Shown here: piece by piece, positions 7,022 through 64,000 of the stretch
Layout: each line of letters starts with the position of its first letter
Position numbering within the stretch: position 1 is the stretch's first letter
Source of the DNA: a bacterium
GTDB lineage: Bacteria; Joyebacterota; Joyebacteria; Joyebacterales; Joyebacteraceae
NCBI GenBank assembly: GCA_025782395.1
Contig: JALGZD010000211.1
Coordinates: 1-64,000 of the forward strand
Direction of reading: 5' to 3'
DNA length: 64,000 bases
Made by a program: the position numbers and the translations under genes
Notes under the pieces: generated by a model
Seen by the model: the letters and a program-made list of their open reading frames with translations, nothing else
What the model was told of the DNA's origin: nothing
Database searches by the model: none

Positions 7022-7585
7022 TTGTCTAGGAGATGTCTGAAGGTCGTCCTCGCCGTGCTGCTGACCGTGCTGGTTGCGCTCTCCGGGTGCGATCGCGGGA
7101 CCGGGGGTGATGCGGGTGGTGGGACGGTGCTTCCCGACCAGGAAATAAGCAGCTTCAAGCTCACGCAGACGAGTGATGGACGCATTGTGTGGACGCTCTC
7201 GGCAACTCTGGCGCTCGTGTTCGAAAAGGCGGACCGGGTCGAGACCACTTCACCCCGGATCGAGTTCTTTGACGAGGACGGGGAACTCAGGTCAACGTTG
7301 ACAGCGCGCACGGGCCTCCTGCGGCAGCGCACGAGCGACATGGAAGTGCTCGGGAACGTCGTTGTCACATCGGCGGACGGGACCGTGCTGGAGACAGAGA
7401 GACTTCTGTGGTGCGAACTGAAGGGCAAGATCGAGACCGACAGAGCCGTCCGCGTCACGAAGGACGGTGATGTCATGACAGGCACCGGGGCGGAGGCGGA
7501 CCCGGATCTCAGGAATCTGAGGATTCTGAGCGACTTCAGGGCCTACGTCCGCTCGGCGAGCGGTGAACTCGAGGAAGAGCAGTAG
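7022..7585 (+). CDS. lptC: LPS export protein LptC-like lipoprotein
   Basis: 187-residue protein assigned to the LptC family, the bitopic periplasmic bridge between LptBFG and LptA. TTG at 7022 lies four bases after AGGAGG (7012-7017). This start gives a short basic N-terminus, a hydrophobic stretch and a lipobox ALSGC at residues 19-23, so the protein looks lipidated rather than anchored by a plain transmembrane helix. The rest is a small beta-rich domain typical of LptC. lptB starts three bases after its stop, supporting the call; lptA, usually between them, is missing. Sequence similarity alone is modest. Confidence 0.75.
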   Translation: MSRRCLKVVLAVLLTVLVALSGCDRGTGGDAGGGTVLPDQEISSFKLTQTSDGRIVWTLSATLALVFEKADRVETTSPRIEFFDEDGELRSTLTARTGLLRQRTSDMEVLGNVVVTSADGTVLETERLLWCELKGKIETDRAVRVTKDGDVMTGTGAEADPDLRNLRILSDFRAYVRSASGELEEEQ

Positions 7586-58564: not shown

Positions 58565-58704
58565 GTCGGGCGCGGCGGTTTCGGCGCCTGTGGCCCTGCA
58601 GGGTGAGTGATGCTGTAGGGTGTTACTCCTGTTACATGGCACAGGGCTTGACTAGTAGTCGTGTGGGAAAAAGCATCGGATTGGGTTCTTTGCACGGAGG
58701 TTCC

Positions 58705-59847
58705 TTGCCCACTGTTATTCATACAGCAGACGTGCATCTCGGCGCGCCGCTAGGTTGGCTTGGAGCACGCGCATCCGATCAACGCGAGCAGCTGCGGCAG
58801 ACGTTCCGTTCGATCATCGACCTGACTATCCAGGAAGACGCGGACTGCCTCATCATCGCCGGGGACCTGTTCGACAGCAATCGGCCGCCGGGGTCGGCCG
58901 TTCGCTTCGTGCTCCGCGAGCTGGCGCGGTTGGGCGATTCCTCCGAAACGTACACCGTGATCCTCCCGGGTTCGCACGATCACATGGGGGATGGATCGGT
59001 CTTCTCCTGCTACAGCAACGAGTTCGCCCAGATCGAGCGTGTGCACATTCTCGGGGCGCACGATGTGCGTTCCGTGGTGATTCCACGCGCGAGTCTTGTC
59101 GTGCACGGAGATCCGCCGCGCTCGAACTCGTCGAGTGAGCACCGGCTGGCAAAGCTCAGGCCGCAGGCCGACCACGAATACAATGTCGCAGTCGCGCACG
59201 GCTCGGTGGATGTGGTTCCCGTAGAGCCGGAGGATCATCCGATATCGCGCGACGAACTTCTGGCACCGGGTTGGTCGTACTTCGCGCTGGGACACTGGCA
59301 CTCCTGGAGGGAGATCGAAGGGAAAGGGGCGCCGGCCGTCTATCCGGGCGCGCCCGAGGTGATTGCCGCTGATCAGGCGGGATCCGGACATGTGGCGCGG
59401 ATCAGCCTGGGTGGTGAGGGGGTGGAGGTAACCAAGGTGAGAGTCGGTGCGCGCACGGTATCGAGTGTGCAAATTGACGTAGGCGGGGCGATGGACACCG
59501 ACGAAGTCGCGCGCCGGGTGGCGACCGAGCACCCAAAAGATGTGAATGCAATCCTCTCCATGACTCTGACGGGTCTCATGCCGGTCGGTTCAGGATTTGA
59601 ACCCGAAGCGTTGCTTGAGGTGCTCAAGCCGGACTACTTCCACGTCAGGTTGCCACGTCTGAACTACGAGGTGCGACTGAGCCACGATGATCTGGAGGCG
59701 CTTCCGGAACGACTCGTCATAGGACGGTTTGTTCGCCTCATGAAGGAACAGATCGATGCTGCCGAGGACAGCAACGACCGGGAGGATCTGGAGGCTGCTC
59801 TTCAGATGGGAGTTGCATTGCTTCAGGGGAAGGACGTGCTGGCGTGA
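58705..59847 (+). CDS. YhaO/SbcD-like metallophosphoesterase (Mre11-type nuclease)
   Basis: 380-residue calcineurin-like phosphoesterase. Motifs: D9-H11 in TADVHLGA, D54 in AGDLFDS, then PGSHDH where the family has GNHD (Ser90 instead of Asn), H165 in VAHGSVD and GHWH (H197, H199). The C-terminal part may bind the partner ATPase encoded next, with which it overlaps (ATGA). This pairing matches the YhaO-YhaN type, a relative of SbcCD/Mre11-Rad50. TTG 58705 is four bases after GGAGG. An in-frame start at 58516 adds 63 unconserved residues. Confidence 0.88.
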   Translation: MPTVIHTADVHLGAPLGWLGARASDQREQLRQTFRSIIDLTIQEDADCLIIAGDLFDSNRPPGSAVRFVLRELARLGDSSETYTVILPGSHDHMGDGSVFSCYSNEFAQIERVHILGAHDVRSVVIPRASLVVHGDPPRSNSSSEHRLAKLRPQADHEYNVAVAHGSVDVVPVEPEDHPISRDELLAPGWSYFALGHWHSWREIEGKGAPAVYPGAPEVIAADQAGSGHVARISLGGEGVEVTKVRVGARTVSSVQIDVGGAMDTDEVARRVATEHPKDVNAILSMTLTGLMPVGSGFEPEALLEVLKPDYFHVRLPRLNYEVRLSHDDLEALPERLVIGRFVRLMKEQIDAAEDSNDREDLEAALQMGVALLQGKDVLA

Positions 59848-61973
59848 GACTGGGGCGACTCAAACTCCGCAATTTCAGGGGCTTTGGGGACTACGAGCTC
59901 AATTTTGCTCAAGGTCTCAATCTGCTCATCGGCGCAAACGAGTCAGGAAAGAGCACAATCATTGACGCCCTCGGGGTTGTGCTGTTCGTGGATCCCGGTA
60001 CGAAGGCCAGAGCGATCCGTGAGCTTGAGTCGTGGGGATCAACAGGTGGAATGCGTCTGGAACTCACGTTCGAGCACGGTGAAAGCAAGTACGAACTCAG
60101 GAAGGACTTCGGATCCGGGCGCGCTGAGCTCAGTGGCCCGGACATAGGTCTCGTGGCTGAACGAGCCAAGGTGAGCGAACTCATCGGGGAGATGGTCGGT
60201 TTCGGGAGCCGTGAGGCATTCGAGTCGGTTGCCATGGTGCGACAGGGTGAATTGGTTGCGTTCGGCGGCCAGCCCGGCAAGAGCAGGCGGGCCGAGCTTG
60301 TCCCGATGATAGAACGAAAAATGACCAGTGCGAGCGGGCGAGTGGACGCCGCCGCAGTTGTTTCCGCGCTGGAGGAGCGCATCCGCGACCTGCGCGTGGG
60401 CATTGACCGACCGGCTGTTCGTCCAGGTCGTCTCAGGAAACTCATGGATGAGGAGAGAACGCTCGCTCAGAAGATCGCGGCAGTCGGCCAGGAGTGGTCG
60501 AAGCAGCTGGCGAGAAAGGCGGCTCACGCGGGCAGACGCGAGGAATGGACGGCCGTGAACGATGACCTAAATCGCCTGGTCAGAATCGTCGAGCAGCAGG
60601 AATCCAGTATCAGACTGTCTGAGGAGCTTGAGCAGATCCGGGAGAACCTGCTTAAGAGAGAGGCCACGATTGCGAGGATCAGGAAGCTCACGGCGGATCT
60701 GGATGACGCTGGACGGGAGAAGGACAGCGTTCCGCCGGGGGAGTGGGAAGCCGTCAAGTTGGCGCGGAGCGATCTTGAGGCAACCGAACGACTGATCCGC
60801 CAGTTCAAGGAGGAAGCGACAGTCAAGGAGGGTGCGTCCAGTTCGAAGACCGGGGGGATCGCCGCGGTGTTGGTGATCGCAGGGCTTGTGACGGCTTCCA
60901 TCGCGGTCTTCATCGTCGGCGACTCGACGCTGCGTCTTGCGGTAGGAGGGATCGCCTTCGCCCTTCTCCTCTGGTCGACCGTGCAGTTCCGCCATCTGGC
61001 CCGAATTCTCGAATACGAGCAAGGTCTCAAGAACCACATGCGGGAGCGGGGGAAGCGAGAACTTGCGTTTCAGTCTGCACTCATGAGGATCGGAGTCCCG
61101 AGCTACGCGGAATTCGCACGCATCACGGAAACCCAGGAGACGCTCTGGCGCCGCGCTGAGGTGTCGAGGGCGCAGCTCAACGAGGTCTGTGACGGCAAGG
61201 ACCCCGAGGAGTTCGAGGAGACACTACGCACCGACGCGGTCTCGCTGGGTCGCAGGCGCACCGAACTCGAGGGGCTGGTGGGTGGCCCCGACGTTCCCGA
61301 GCTGCTTCTCGACAGAGCAGCGCTTGCGAAGCTTCGGGAAGAGCGAGACAGCAAGAGGGAGCAAGAGACGCGTCTGCGACGTAGCATCGATGACGATCAG
61401 ATACGGATGGAGCGCGATGAGAAGGGAGAAGCTCTTCCGGATCTTGAGGCGAAGCGGGAATCGGTGCTGGCCGGGATCAGTAGGGTAGAGGAACGCATCA
61501 GGATCATGCAATTGGCGGCACAGGGGCTCGAGGGAGCGCTCACGAGCACGAAGGAGGAGGCCGCCGAGGTACTCGCTCCGATCATCAGCAGGGTCCTTGA
61601 GCGGATCACGGGCAGCAGGTACTCACGCGTGTCGGTCAGCAAGGATCTCGAAGTCTCCCTTGACAACCCATCGCTGATTCCCGGAGCTCCAGAAAATGTT
61701 CTCGAGAGCGATCTCAGCACCGGCACGGTCGACCAGCTCTACCTCGCCACTCGCTACGCTCTTCTGGAGTTCCTCTCTTCCCAAGACGGCGCGCCCTTCA
61801 TTCTGGACGACTCCCTCGTCAATTGCGACCCCGAGCGCCGGCAGCGGACGTTCGAGCTGATGCGCGAGATATCGGCTGAGCGCCAGGTGATCGCCTGCAT
61901 GTGCGAGGATCACGGCGTCGAGCGTCCAGTCAATCTGATCAAATTGCCATCCATCAGCACGCCATCTTCATGA
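59844..61973 (+). CDS. YhaN/SbcC-like SMC-family ATPase with internal membrane hairpin
   Basis: 709-residue ABC-type ATPase split by a coiled coil. N-terminal Walker A GANESGKST at residues 30-38. Long coiled coils flank two predicted membrane helices at about 338-358 and 364-382, where Rad50/SbcC has a zinc hook. C-terminal signature SDLSTGTVDQLYLATRYAL and Walker B FILDDSLVNCD. No CxxC hook is visible. Start GTG/ATG-like codon overlaps the previous gene; its stop overlaps a 54-codon ORF. Likely works on DNA ends at the membrane. Confidence 0.88.
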   Translation: MRLGRLKLRNFRGFGDYELNFAQGLNLLIGANESGKSTIIDALGVVLFVDPGTKARAIRELESWGSTGGMRLELTFEHGESKYELRKDFGSGRAELSGPDIGLVAERAKVSELIGEMVGFGSREAFESVAMVRQGELVAFGGQPGKSRRAELVPMIERKMTSASGRVDAAAVVSALEERIRDLRVGIDRPAVRPGRLRKLMDEERTLAQKIAAVGQEWSKQLARKAAHAGRREEWTAVNDDLNRLVRIVEQQESSIRLSEELEQIRENLLKREATIARIRKLTADLDDAGREKDSVPPGEWEAVKLARSDLEATERLIRQFKEEATVKEGASSSKTGGIAAVLVIAGLVTASIAVFIVGDSTLRLAVGGIAFALLLWSTVQFRHLARILEYEQGLKNHMRERGKRELAFQSALMRIGVPSYAEFARITETQETLWRRAEVSRAQLNEVCDGKDPEEFEETLRTDAVSLGRRRTELEGLVGGPDVPELLLDRAALAKLREERDSKREQETRLRRSIDDDQIRMERDEKGEALPDLEAKRESVLAGISRVEERIRIMQLAAQGLEGALTSTKEEAAEVLAPIISRVLERITGSRYSRVSVSKDLEVSLDNPSLIPGAPENVLESDLSTGTVDQLYLATRYALLEFLSSQDGAPFILDDSLVNCDPERRQRTFELMREISAERQVIACMCEDHGVERPVNLIKLPSISTPSS

Positions 61974-62134
61974 CCAACAAGAGCGACGGATATGAGGCTC
62001 CGCCGACGCCTGGTGGTGCGTGGGGTTCTTGCGTCCTGTGCTGTTTCGCTGAGAGCGGGAGACTCGCGGCGAGGTGGGTTCTATCTGCGGCGTTGCGCTT
62101 GAGCGCCGGGAGTGAGAAGATGAGGACAGCCTGA
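61970..62134 (+). CDS. Small ORF, 54 codons, overlapping both neighbours
   Basis: ATG at 61970 overlaps the YhaN stop (ATGA), and its TGA at 62132-62134 overlaps the ATG of the CHAT gene (TGATG). The product is MTNKSDGYEAPPTPGGAWGS..., with a Cys-rich CVLCC stretch at residues 21-25 and a basic, weakly amphipathic C-terminal half. No family recognised. Double overlap is the main evidence; a chance ORF between coupled genes cannot be excluded. Confidence 0.45.
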   Translation: MTNKSDGYEAPPTPGGAWGSCVLCCFAESGRLAARWVLSAALRLSAGSEKMRTA

Positions 62135-63609
62135 TGCCTTCACGGGGGCCGGATATGGAAATGCGCTGTCCGAAGTGTGGTGGTACTACTGTCGTCAAGA
62201 GCGAAACGTGGAGTCGGAGCAGCAGTCGCCTCGTGCGCGTGGCGCAGTGCGAGTCGTGCGGGAGCGAATTCAGGAGAGAGCTACCTTGGGGCGGTGTTTC
62301 TCCATCGGAGATGCCTCGTAGCCGGCGCGGAATGCTCAGATGGAGTCTGTGGCTTATTGTGTCCTTGACCGTGATCTGGATCGCTCTCAATCTGACCGAC
62401 TTTGTGGCAAGATCGCTCATCTACCGGACGGTGACGCGAACGGCTGAGGGCTTTCTTCATCCCGGCTGGATTGTTGCGCTGATCCTGTCGGGAACGCTGC
62501 TTTGGTTGGCTGGCAGGCGGCGCGCAACGCTCCCTATCCGCCCGGCCATACTCGCGCCGGACGTCCACATCAGACTGGAGCCAGGGGGGAAGCTGTCACT
62601 GATCTTTACCGGTAGTCGAGGTGCGATCGCTCACGACTATGTGCTTGGTCGCCGCCACGAGGAAGAGAAGAACCTCCTTCGTGAGCTCGATGACATGGCC
62701 AGACGCAGCGTGACGTTCGAGGACTGTGACGGACTGCCCGGCGCCGACGAGATCGCCGAGGCACATCGCGGTATCTATGCTGTTGGACGGGGATTGGCCT
62801 CTATTCTCGGCGGAGATGAGGACGGTGGAGCAATGGACCAACTGGTGGATCTCCCGGGGGACCACCTTCTCCTGCGGGTTCAGCGCGAGCTGAGCGCCTT
62901 TCCGTGGGAACTCCTGGTTCCCAAGTCCGGAGGAGAGCCTCTCTGGAAACTCTACTCGCTTTCGCGCCAGATCAGAACAGACGATTCCCGGGACACGCTC
63001 TGGCGCAGACCTGTGAGGCCGTTGAGAATGCTCCTGATGGCGAATCTGGAGCAGGGGAACGAAGGGCGGGATCTTCCTCAGGCAGAGCGCGAGGCGCAGG
63101 AGATCCTCGAGTTCGGAGCGCTGAGGCCGGAGCTCTTGCGCGTGATCAGGCGATCGCCACGAGACCTCGGGGAGCTGCGGGCCGCGCTTAACGAGCGCTA
63201 CGACATCGTCCACTACGCGGGTCACACGGCTCATAATGAAAGTGGTGGAGCGGGTTGGGTACTGCCGAGCGGTGAGATCATTGATGGTCAAGATCTCTTC
63301 CTGCCTGCAACAACTCCCGTTCTGGTGTTCTCGAATGCATGCGGCGAGGGAACGGGGACCGAGCTCCGGGTGGGTAGGCTTGCTGCGTCGTTCGCCGAAG
63401 GTGGAGTACCCGCCTATCTCGGCACGCTCTGGGAGCTTCATGATACCGGGAGCGCGGCGTTCGCGTTGGCCTTCTACCGCAGCATTCTCGACGGCGACAC
63501 ACTGGGCGCCTCAGTCCGGAGCGCGCGCGAACAGTCCTTCAGATTCAACGCCTTCTCGTGGGCCAACTACGTCCTCTACGGGGATCCGACTGCGAGACTC
63601 ATCGAGTAG
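62134..63609 (+). CDS. Membrane CHAT-domain (caspase-like) protease with zinc ribbon
   Basis: 491-residue protein. N-terminal zinc ribbon CPKC (C12, C15) and CESC (C39, C42), then two transmembrane helices (about 68-88 and 111-127), a spacer and a C-terminal CHAT domain (about 295-491) with catalytic His364 in HYAGHTA and Cys403 in VFSNACGEG. CHAT domains are cysteine peptidases of the caspase/separase clan. Both the ribbon and the peptidase should be on the same side, probably cytoplasmic. ATG 62134 overlaps the small ORF; ATG 62155 (MEMRCPKC) is an alternative. An ECF sigma factor follows. Confidence 0.9.
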   Translation: MPSRGPDMEMRCPKCGGTTVVKSETWSRSSSRLVRVAQCESCGSEFRRELPWGGVSPSEMPRSRRGMLRWSLWLIVSLTVIWIALNLTDFVARSLIYRTVTRTAEGFLHPGWIVALILSGTLLWLAGRRRATLPIRPAILAPDVHIRLEPGGKLSLIFTGSRGAIAHDYVLGRRHEEEKNLLRELDDMARRSVTFEDCDGLPGADEIAEAHRGIYAVGRGLASILGGDEDGGAMDQLVDLPGDHLLLRVQRELSAFPWELLVPKSGGEPLWKLYSLSRQIRTDDSRDTLWRRPVRPLRMLLMANLEQGNEGRDLPQAEREAQEILEFGALRPELLRVIRRSPRDLGELRAALNERYDIVHYAGHTAHNESGGAGWVLPSGEIIDGQDLFLPATTPVLVFSNACGEGTGTELRVGRLAASFAEGGVPAYLGTLWELHDTGSAAFALAFYRSILDGDTLGASVRSAREQSFRFNAFSWANYVLYGDPTARLIE

Positions 63610-63674
63610 AACGAACGGCGCCGCGAAGAAGTCGGCTCTGGGGCGCGTCAGACATATGCAGCGAGGAAGGCCCT

Positions 63675-64000
63675 TTGCGCTCTACCAAGGATCGTGACAA
63701 CGCGAGCGTGAAGTTGATTGCGCGTCTGAAGGCGGGCGACGGTGCGGCATGGACGGACTTCATCGAGCGCTACCGCCGGCTCATCTTCAGCGCCATCAAC
63801 AGGGTGAACGGGCGCTACGGAGCAGAATGGGACGAGGCTGTGATGGAGAACCTCTTCGCCGAGGTGCTCTTCAAGCTGCTACGCCGCAATGCAGCCGCGC
63901 TGACATCGTGGCAGGGGCGCTGCCGTCTGGAGACCTGGATCTACAGAATCGTGAGGAACGTCTGCATCGACGAACTCCGGAAGGCGGGGCGCAGGGGGGA
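63675..64000 (+). CDS. ECF-type RNA polymerase sigma factor (partial, cut by window edge)
   Basis: The first 108 codons of an ECF sigma factor are visible. TTG 63675 lies four bases after GAGGAAGG. The translation includes KLIARLKAGDGAAWTDFIE, LIFSAINRV and the region-2 block LETWIYRIVRNVCIDELRK, a hallmark of sigma region 2.4. Region 4 and any anti-sigma gene lie beyond the window. Placement 65 bp after the CHAT gene suggests joint control. Confidence 0.88.
   Translation, partial: MRSTKDRDNASVKLIARLKAGDGAAWTDFIERYRRLIFSAINRVNGRYGAEWDEAVMENLFAEVLFKLLRRNAAALTSWQGRCRLETWIYRIVRNVCIDELRKAGRRG

Follow-up and report, generated by a model that had tools for sequence, protein, structure and literature searches.

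Type III-E CRISPR systems couple a protease to transcription in that the CHAT protease of Craspase cleaves Csx30, which frees the sigma factor CASP-sigma (PMC10028731). A comparable set of genes is described here at the end of the window, that is, the whole 64,000-nucleotide stretch of DNA that was analysed, which covers 1-64000 of a contig of 72,959 bp; genes beyond 64000 were read on the same contig. The named relatives of the bacterium are Candidatus Eisenbacteria / Candidatus Effluviviaceae, of the phylum Candidatus Effluviviacota. The locus encodes YhaO, YhaN, a CHAT protease, an ECF sigma factor and a ZAS-beta protein, which is a putative anti-sigma factor. With moderate confidence, we read these genes as two units side by side: YhaO-YhaN as a DNA-end complex of the SbcD-SbcC/Mre11-Rad50 kind, and the CHAT/anti-sigma/ECF trio as a protease/anti-sigma/sigma relay that is independent of CRISPR.

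A comparison with the described systems indicates that Craspase (Csx29 TPR-CHAT, Csx30 and CASP-sigma) is the closest working analogue, where an ECF sigma factor and a sigma inhibitor likewise occur with a CHAT protease; the CHAT model from this locus also has Csx29 among its best fold matches. An earlier note on this DNA had drawn the same analogy, which is well placed in that CHAT, ECF and ZAS form a recurrent unit that is lost together. However, the inhibitor here is the ZAS-beta protein, the CHAT protein is membrane-anchored, and the predicted cleavage site has an invariant arginine, whereas the Craspase sites are not conserved. No Csx30 is present at the locus, and the ZAS-beta profile matched no Csx30 chain in the PDB. 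Additionally, no Cas7-11 or CRISPR array occurs among the identified genes between the NifS-like gene and RecR, the rest of the genome not having been searched for Cas7-11.

The DdvS/DdvA pair of Myxococcus xanthus (PDB 8rlz, 8rot, 8rw5) likewise consists of an ECF sigma factor and a transmembrane anti-sigma factor that combines a ZAS motif with a CHAT fold. In DdvA these lie in one chain, whereas they are separate proteins here and the anti-sigma factor is predicted to be soluble; a ZAS motif was found in the first 120 residues of none of the 67 CHAT proteins scanned for such a fusion. The ECF54 group has CHAT and other protease genes nearby, for which proteolytic control was proposed, and is described as being without an anti-sigma factor (PMC8999054). 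The CHAT neighbour is shared, but an anti-sigma gene is present here, which sets the locus apart from ECF54 as described. In the EACC2-caspase-ECF neighbourhoods, a caspase-fold protease with variable sensor domains lies beside an ECF factor (PMC8195603), a pairing that is also found here, although Pfam annotation of the locus shows no EACC2/TRADD-N. By membership, the trio fits neither Craspase, DdvS/DdvA nor ECF54, the last compared by its description. A description of an ECF-ZAS-CHAT three-gene operon was not found in the open-access literature, a search outside which most subscription papers lie, and novelty is therefore not proven. The features of the locus are as follows.

58637-58651, + strand: candidate operon promoter, sigma54-like -24/-12 site TGGCACAGGGCTTGA, 5' of YhaO (9/10 match)
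58705-59847, + strand: YhaO, SbcD/Mre11-like metallophosphoesterase, 380 amino acids, TTG start (Metallophos 6.5e-11; SbcD 9.8e-21)
59844-61973, + strand: YhaN, Rad50/SbcC-like ATPase, 709 amino acids (AAA_23 5e-17, AAA_27; Rad50 2.1e-21)
61970-62134, + strand: 54-codon open reading frame (ORF), probably not a gene
62134-63609, + strand: predicted CHAT protease, 491 amino acids (PF12770 2.9e-23)
contig 63675-64289 (63675-64000 in the window), + strand: ECF sigma factor, 204 amino acids (TIGR02937 8.3e-25; regions 2 and 4)
contig 64303-65121 (L002:6303-7121), past the window edge, + strand: ZAS-beta putative anti-sigma factor, 272 amino acids (two zf-HC2)

The YhaO-like, YhaN-like, CHAT and ECF genes that the earlier note had named are real, as judged by their Pfam/NCBIfam matches, and its suggestion to look past 64000 for an anti-sigma factor is borne out by the ZAS gene directly downstream of the ECF gene.

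Recurrence and joint loss of CHAT, ECF and ZAS

What the sequences show directly is the set of genes and its conservation, loss in common and recurrence in other phyla, together with the invariant residues; by these, CHAT, ECF and ZAS form a recurrent, co-lost unit that is co-evolving for the pairs CHAT-ZAS and ECF-ZAS. Within the family, the complete genome G005 keeps YhaO-YhaN and their neighbours; CHAT occurs nowhere in this genome, and the orthologous ECF and ZAS genes are absent. In the concatenated tree, G005 is nested as the sister of the trio-bearing G011 (support 0.97, and 0.94 when rooted with YhaO/YhaN of other phyla), which indicates that CHAT, ECF and ZAS were lost together.

The nearest CHAT proteins outside the phylum are from Nitrospirota, Desulfobacterota, Omnitrophota, Myxococcota and others, and a scan of the genome contigs places them mostly in ECF-ZAS-CHAT operons. 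Among 60 assessable non-family loci, which were chosen by similarity to this CHAT, an ECF gene lies less than 1.2 kb upstream of CHAT in 48, with a ZAS gene between them in 45, and YhaO or YhaN is present in none. Six YhaO-YhaN pairs of other phyla are, in turn, without CHAT or ECF within the several kilobases read on each side. The earlier note had proposed one five-gene module in which the DNA-end complex is the sensor, and had asked whether all five genes co-occur; this proposal is not supported, since YhaO/YhaN is found without CHAT or sigma in these six loci and in G005, and CHAT-sigma is found without the nuclease in 48 of the 60.

Conversely, 290 genomes were searched with the ZAS-beta profile, without conditioning on CHAT. 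Nine regions were read beyond the known G059 trio, and CHAT adjoins the ZAS/ECF genes or lies within about 1.2 kb of them in eight of the nine. The ninth region, L280 (G213:C8), contains two ECF-ZAS pairs with a weak 133-residue CHAT fragment between them, 1.5 kb from ECF. The region L278 (G153:C42) has the order CHAT-ECF-ZAS as in Effluviviacota, without YhaO/YhaN. In the ECF tree, the trio ECFs from the Effluviviacota family and from other phyla are set apart from 26 other ECFs (64/64 versus 0/26, support 0.993), the root of this tree not being fixed.

Residual rate covariation was calculated for 11 taxa from pairwise distances, after correction for the divergence of four genes of the block. 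The value is 0.89 for YhaO-YhaN, 0.51 for ECF-ZAS (p 0.005) and 0.42 for CHAT-ZAS (p 0.018); those for CHAT-YhaN and CHAT-YhaO are -0.18 and 0.02. This pattern, which is suggestive only, would be expected of an anti-sigma factor in contact with CHAT as well as with the sigma factor, and of a DNA complex that stands apart.

Gene order, transcription signals and the YhaO-YhaN pair

The order YhaO-YhaN-CHAT-ECF-ZAS is kept in every family genome with a contig spanning the locus, except G005, and is far beyond chance. The whole block from the NifS-like gene to RecR is equally syntenic in those genomes. Gene order alone therefore shows no shared function, because the flanking genes are just as fixed, and adjacency was rejected as evidence of a five-gene device. 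Regarding the row of overlapping genes described in the earlier note, the 4-bp overlap of the YhaO and YhaN ORFs and the start of ECF 65 bp past the CHAT stop hold, and in G006 and G015 the CHAT and YhaN genes share 11 bp. The small ORF, which the same note had counted as a part of the module, was dropped: it has no family match, tblastn against the loci of relatives gave no match in any of them, and the YhaN-CHAT gap in G001 is merely 18 bp, too short for 54 codons. This ORF is probably not a gene.

The sigma54-like site 5' of YhaO is found at -61 to -79 in G000, G001, G003 and G004, and variants matching at 8/10 positions are found at -63 to -114 in eight other family genomes. Since about two matches this good are expected by chance per strand in 64 kb, it is the conservation that carries the claim of a sigma54 site. 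Neither CHAT nor ECF has such a site on its 5' side, and the ZAS gene is followed by a hairpin of very high stability (z -5.75); a sigma54-like site only 5' of YhaO, together with this hairpin, suggests that YhaO through ZAS form one transcript. A scan for sigma70 promoters and terminators yielded none above chance, and no ECF promoter motif was found by eye 5' of CHAT or ECF in close relatives.

A perfect sigma54 -24/-12 site (TGGCAC-N5-TTGC) lies further downstream, at L002 ~7270-7285 (contig ~65270), 5' of the operon of a sensor kinase and a GGDEF response regulator, and is kept in nearly all family genomes, with a 10/10 match in most. The genes 3' of the anti-sigma gene encode this GAF-domain sensor kinase, the GGDEF response regulator, TadA, three tRNAs, a large signal recognition particle (SRP) RNA, DnaX, YbaB and RecR. 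The SRP RNA, of the large bacterial type, is at L002:11807-12070, between the three tRNA genes and DnaX.

The likeness of YhaO/YhaN to SbcD/SbcC (Mre11/Rad50), as stated in the earlier note, is confirmed by family, motif and PDB matches. YhaO matches Pfam Metallophos, NCBIfam SbcD and Mre11/SbcD structures in the PDB, and the G000 protein contains all five metallophosphoesterase motifs, with GSHD replacing GNHD. The GSHD motif was rejected as a sign of nuclease loss, as several non-family YhaO proteins carry GTHD at this position. The YhaN protein of G000 contains the Walker A motif, the LSxGT signature and the DD Walker B motif expected of an SbcC/Rad50-type ATPase; among its relatives, Walker A is present in all sequences and the signature in all full-length ones, and the Walker B pattern is unmatched in about half. 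A central hydrophobic segment (~331-385) with one or two likely transmembrane helices is found in all full-length relatives. The pair thus resembles SbcC-SbcD/Mre11-Rad50 and YhaN-YhaO in the folds of its nuclease and ATPase, in their motifs and in the order of the paired genes, and differs in the hydrophobic hairpin of YhaN, in GSHD for GNHD and in a probably dead nuclease in genus g4. In all six YhaO proteins of this genus (G007, G013, G016-G019; L067, L074, L077-L080), the final metal-binding histidine, in motif V, is lost (GHxH to GHxR/G/P); the motif I histidine is lost as well in G013, and G016 has an apparent frameshift near residue 20. The YhaO nuclease of this genus is probably inactive while YhaN and CHAT are kept, which, if real, would allow the complex a role other than catalysis.

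The gene row could also be explained by a five-gene device, in which membrane-bound YhaO/YhaN is a sensor of aberrant or foreign DNA ends that signals to CHAT, which then frees the ECF factor. The fixed order, the overlaps between ORFs, the signals for one transcript and the membrane segments in both YhaN and CHAT are in favour of this explanation, and the intact CHAT beside a YhaO without its metal-binding histidine in genus g4 is what a sensor-only role would allow. However, we regard such a device as unlikely in light of the equal synteny of the NifS-to-RecR block, the YhaO-YhaN pair without the trio in G005, the trio without YhaO/YhaN in other phyla and the lack of rate covariation between CHAT and YhaO/YhaN. 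Under the two-unit reading, the physical coupling of YhaO-YhaN with the trio in one operon is likely within Effluviviacota, and the shared operon position is what makes it possible that YhaO-YhaN supplies the input to the trio there.

The predicted protease, the ZAS-beta protein and the linker arginine

The CHAT protein begins with a four-cysteine zinc ribbon (C12, C15, C39 and C42), followed by two transmembrane helices. Its CHAT domain (PF12770, clan CD) contains a His-Cys dyad, and His364, Cys403 and the acidic Asp437 are invariant in 67/67 sequences, from which the protein is predicted to be a protease. A sequence search of the PDB with the single sequence gave no match, and a profile matched SAVED-CHAT; the closest folds to the structure model are separase, Csx29 and the M. 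xanthus anti-sigma factor DdvA. Positively charged residues flank both transmembrane helices on the zinc-ribbon side and on the CHAT side, which suggests that the zinc ribbon and the CHAT domain are both cytoplasmic. In other phyla, TPR, adenylate-cyclase-like or CsgG/LpoB-like domains are present in place of the zinc ribbon and transmembrane helices. At L119, L125 and L137, two or three consecutive CHAT genes lie 3' of the ZAS gene. To our knowledge, few bacterial CHAT proteases have known natural substrates.

The ZAS-beta protein, encoded next to the ECF gene, matches zf-HC2 (7.4e-11) and has two H-x3-C-x2-C zinc motifs that are invariant in the family. The class I ZAS anti-sigma motif is present, and the PDB matches are RslA, ChrR, RsiW and DdvA. 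A common layout is found across phyla, namely the ZAS part, a helical and disordered linker, and a C-terminal Ig-like beta domain; Foldseek with the anti-sigma model gave only weak Ig/FN3-like matches, by which no function is indicated. Within the linker, in a region with pLDDT < 50, Arg170 (G000 numbering; codon at contig 64810-64812) is present in 59/59 anti-sigma proteins and in 22/22 after thinning to <40% identity. Its conservation equals that of the zinc ligands H88, C92 and C95, and the neighbouring linker columns are 7-73% conserved. The following residue is Ser, Gly, Ala or Thr in 56 of the 59 proteins, and R[SGAT] is likewise found alignment-free in 56/59, versus 45% of shuffled linkers. 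Separases, gingipain R and MALT1 cut after a P1 arginine and have acidic S1 residues (PMC4626109). In light of this Arg-specific precedent and of the invariant arginine in a disordered linker, cleavage after Arg170 is proposed.

In the proposed relay, the anti-sigma factor would, at rest, probably bind the ECF factor. An input would reach CHAT via its fused domain, which is the zinc ribbon and transmembrane hairpin here and a TPR, cyclase-like or CsgG-like domain in other phyla. The protease, once active, would cut its anti-sigma substrate behind the invariant arginine of the linker (R|S/G). The ZAS domains would thereby be split from the beta domain, and the sigma factor would be freed either by the cut itself or by subsequent degradation. 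Sigma binding, cleavage and its site, sigma release, the input and the regulon are inferred parts of this relay.

Several observations weigh against this relay. The anti-sigma role of the ZAS-beta protein is assigned from its ZAS motifs and gene position only, and the choice of the 60 loci by similarity favours one CHAT subfamily. In an independent ZAS-beta set, arginine is present at the linker column in 6/10 proteins: L278, a true trio, has K/H at the column, L279 is without arginine there, perhaps through an alignment shift of a few residues, and the two L280 ZAS copies are without the linker. The invariant arginine could instead be kept because it binds sigma or because the beta domain needs it to fold. 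The sites cut by Craspase CHATs (A|S, L|D and M|K) are neither conserved nor at arginine (PMC11106740), and a CHAT protease thus need not prefer arginine. Additionally, CHAT-ECF rate covariation is nil (0.00), and the covariation analysis has 11 taxa only and several tests.

In ChrR and other soluble ZAS anti-sigma factors, ligands are sensed by the C-terminal domain. ChrR is among the PDB matches, and this, together with the nil CHAT-ECF covariation, is consistent with a ligand-sensing ZAS-beta protein, beside which CHAT would not release sigma and would act on other substrates, as an effector or accessory protease (e.g., a sigma-induced cell-death protease). This explanation is improbable, since it does not predict that an Arg[S/G/A] in a disordered linker would be invariant where the neighbouring gene encodes a clan-CD protease, and the CHAT-ZAS covariation also argues against it. 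An anti-phage defence system is very unlikely: the locus resembles Craspase, SAVED-CHAT and, in generic PADLOC GajA/PtuA/Mad3 P-loop matches, defence ATPases, but it is vertically inherited in the whole family at one place among housekeeping genes, its PADLOC matches are to generic ATPase/CHAT only, mobility signs are absent, and neither PADLOC nor a mobile-island context identifies a known system.

For the relay of CHAT, anti-sigma and ECF factor, the broadest version would be a widespread, CRISPR-independent control of sigma factors by ECF-ZAS-beta-CHAT, with interchangeable sensor domains and a single arginine cut, wired in Effluviviacota to a membrane Mre11/Rad50-like complex; it is quite unlikely to hold in full. 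The linker arginine provides a one-residue prediction of both substrate and cleavage site, which could cover many proteins in Nitrospirota, Desulfobacterota, Omnitrophota and others. If this is true, the sigma relay of Craspase would be one case of a broader regulatory logic and not a CRISPR oddity.

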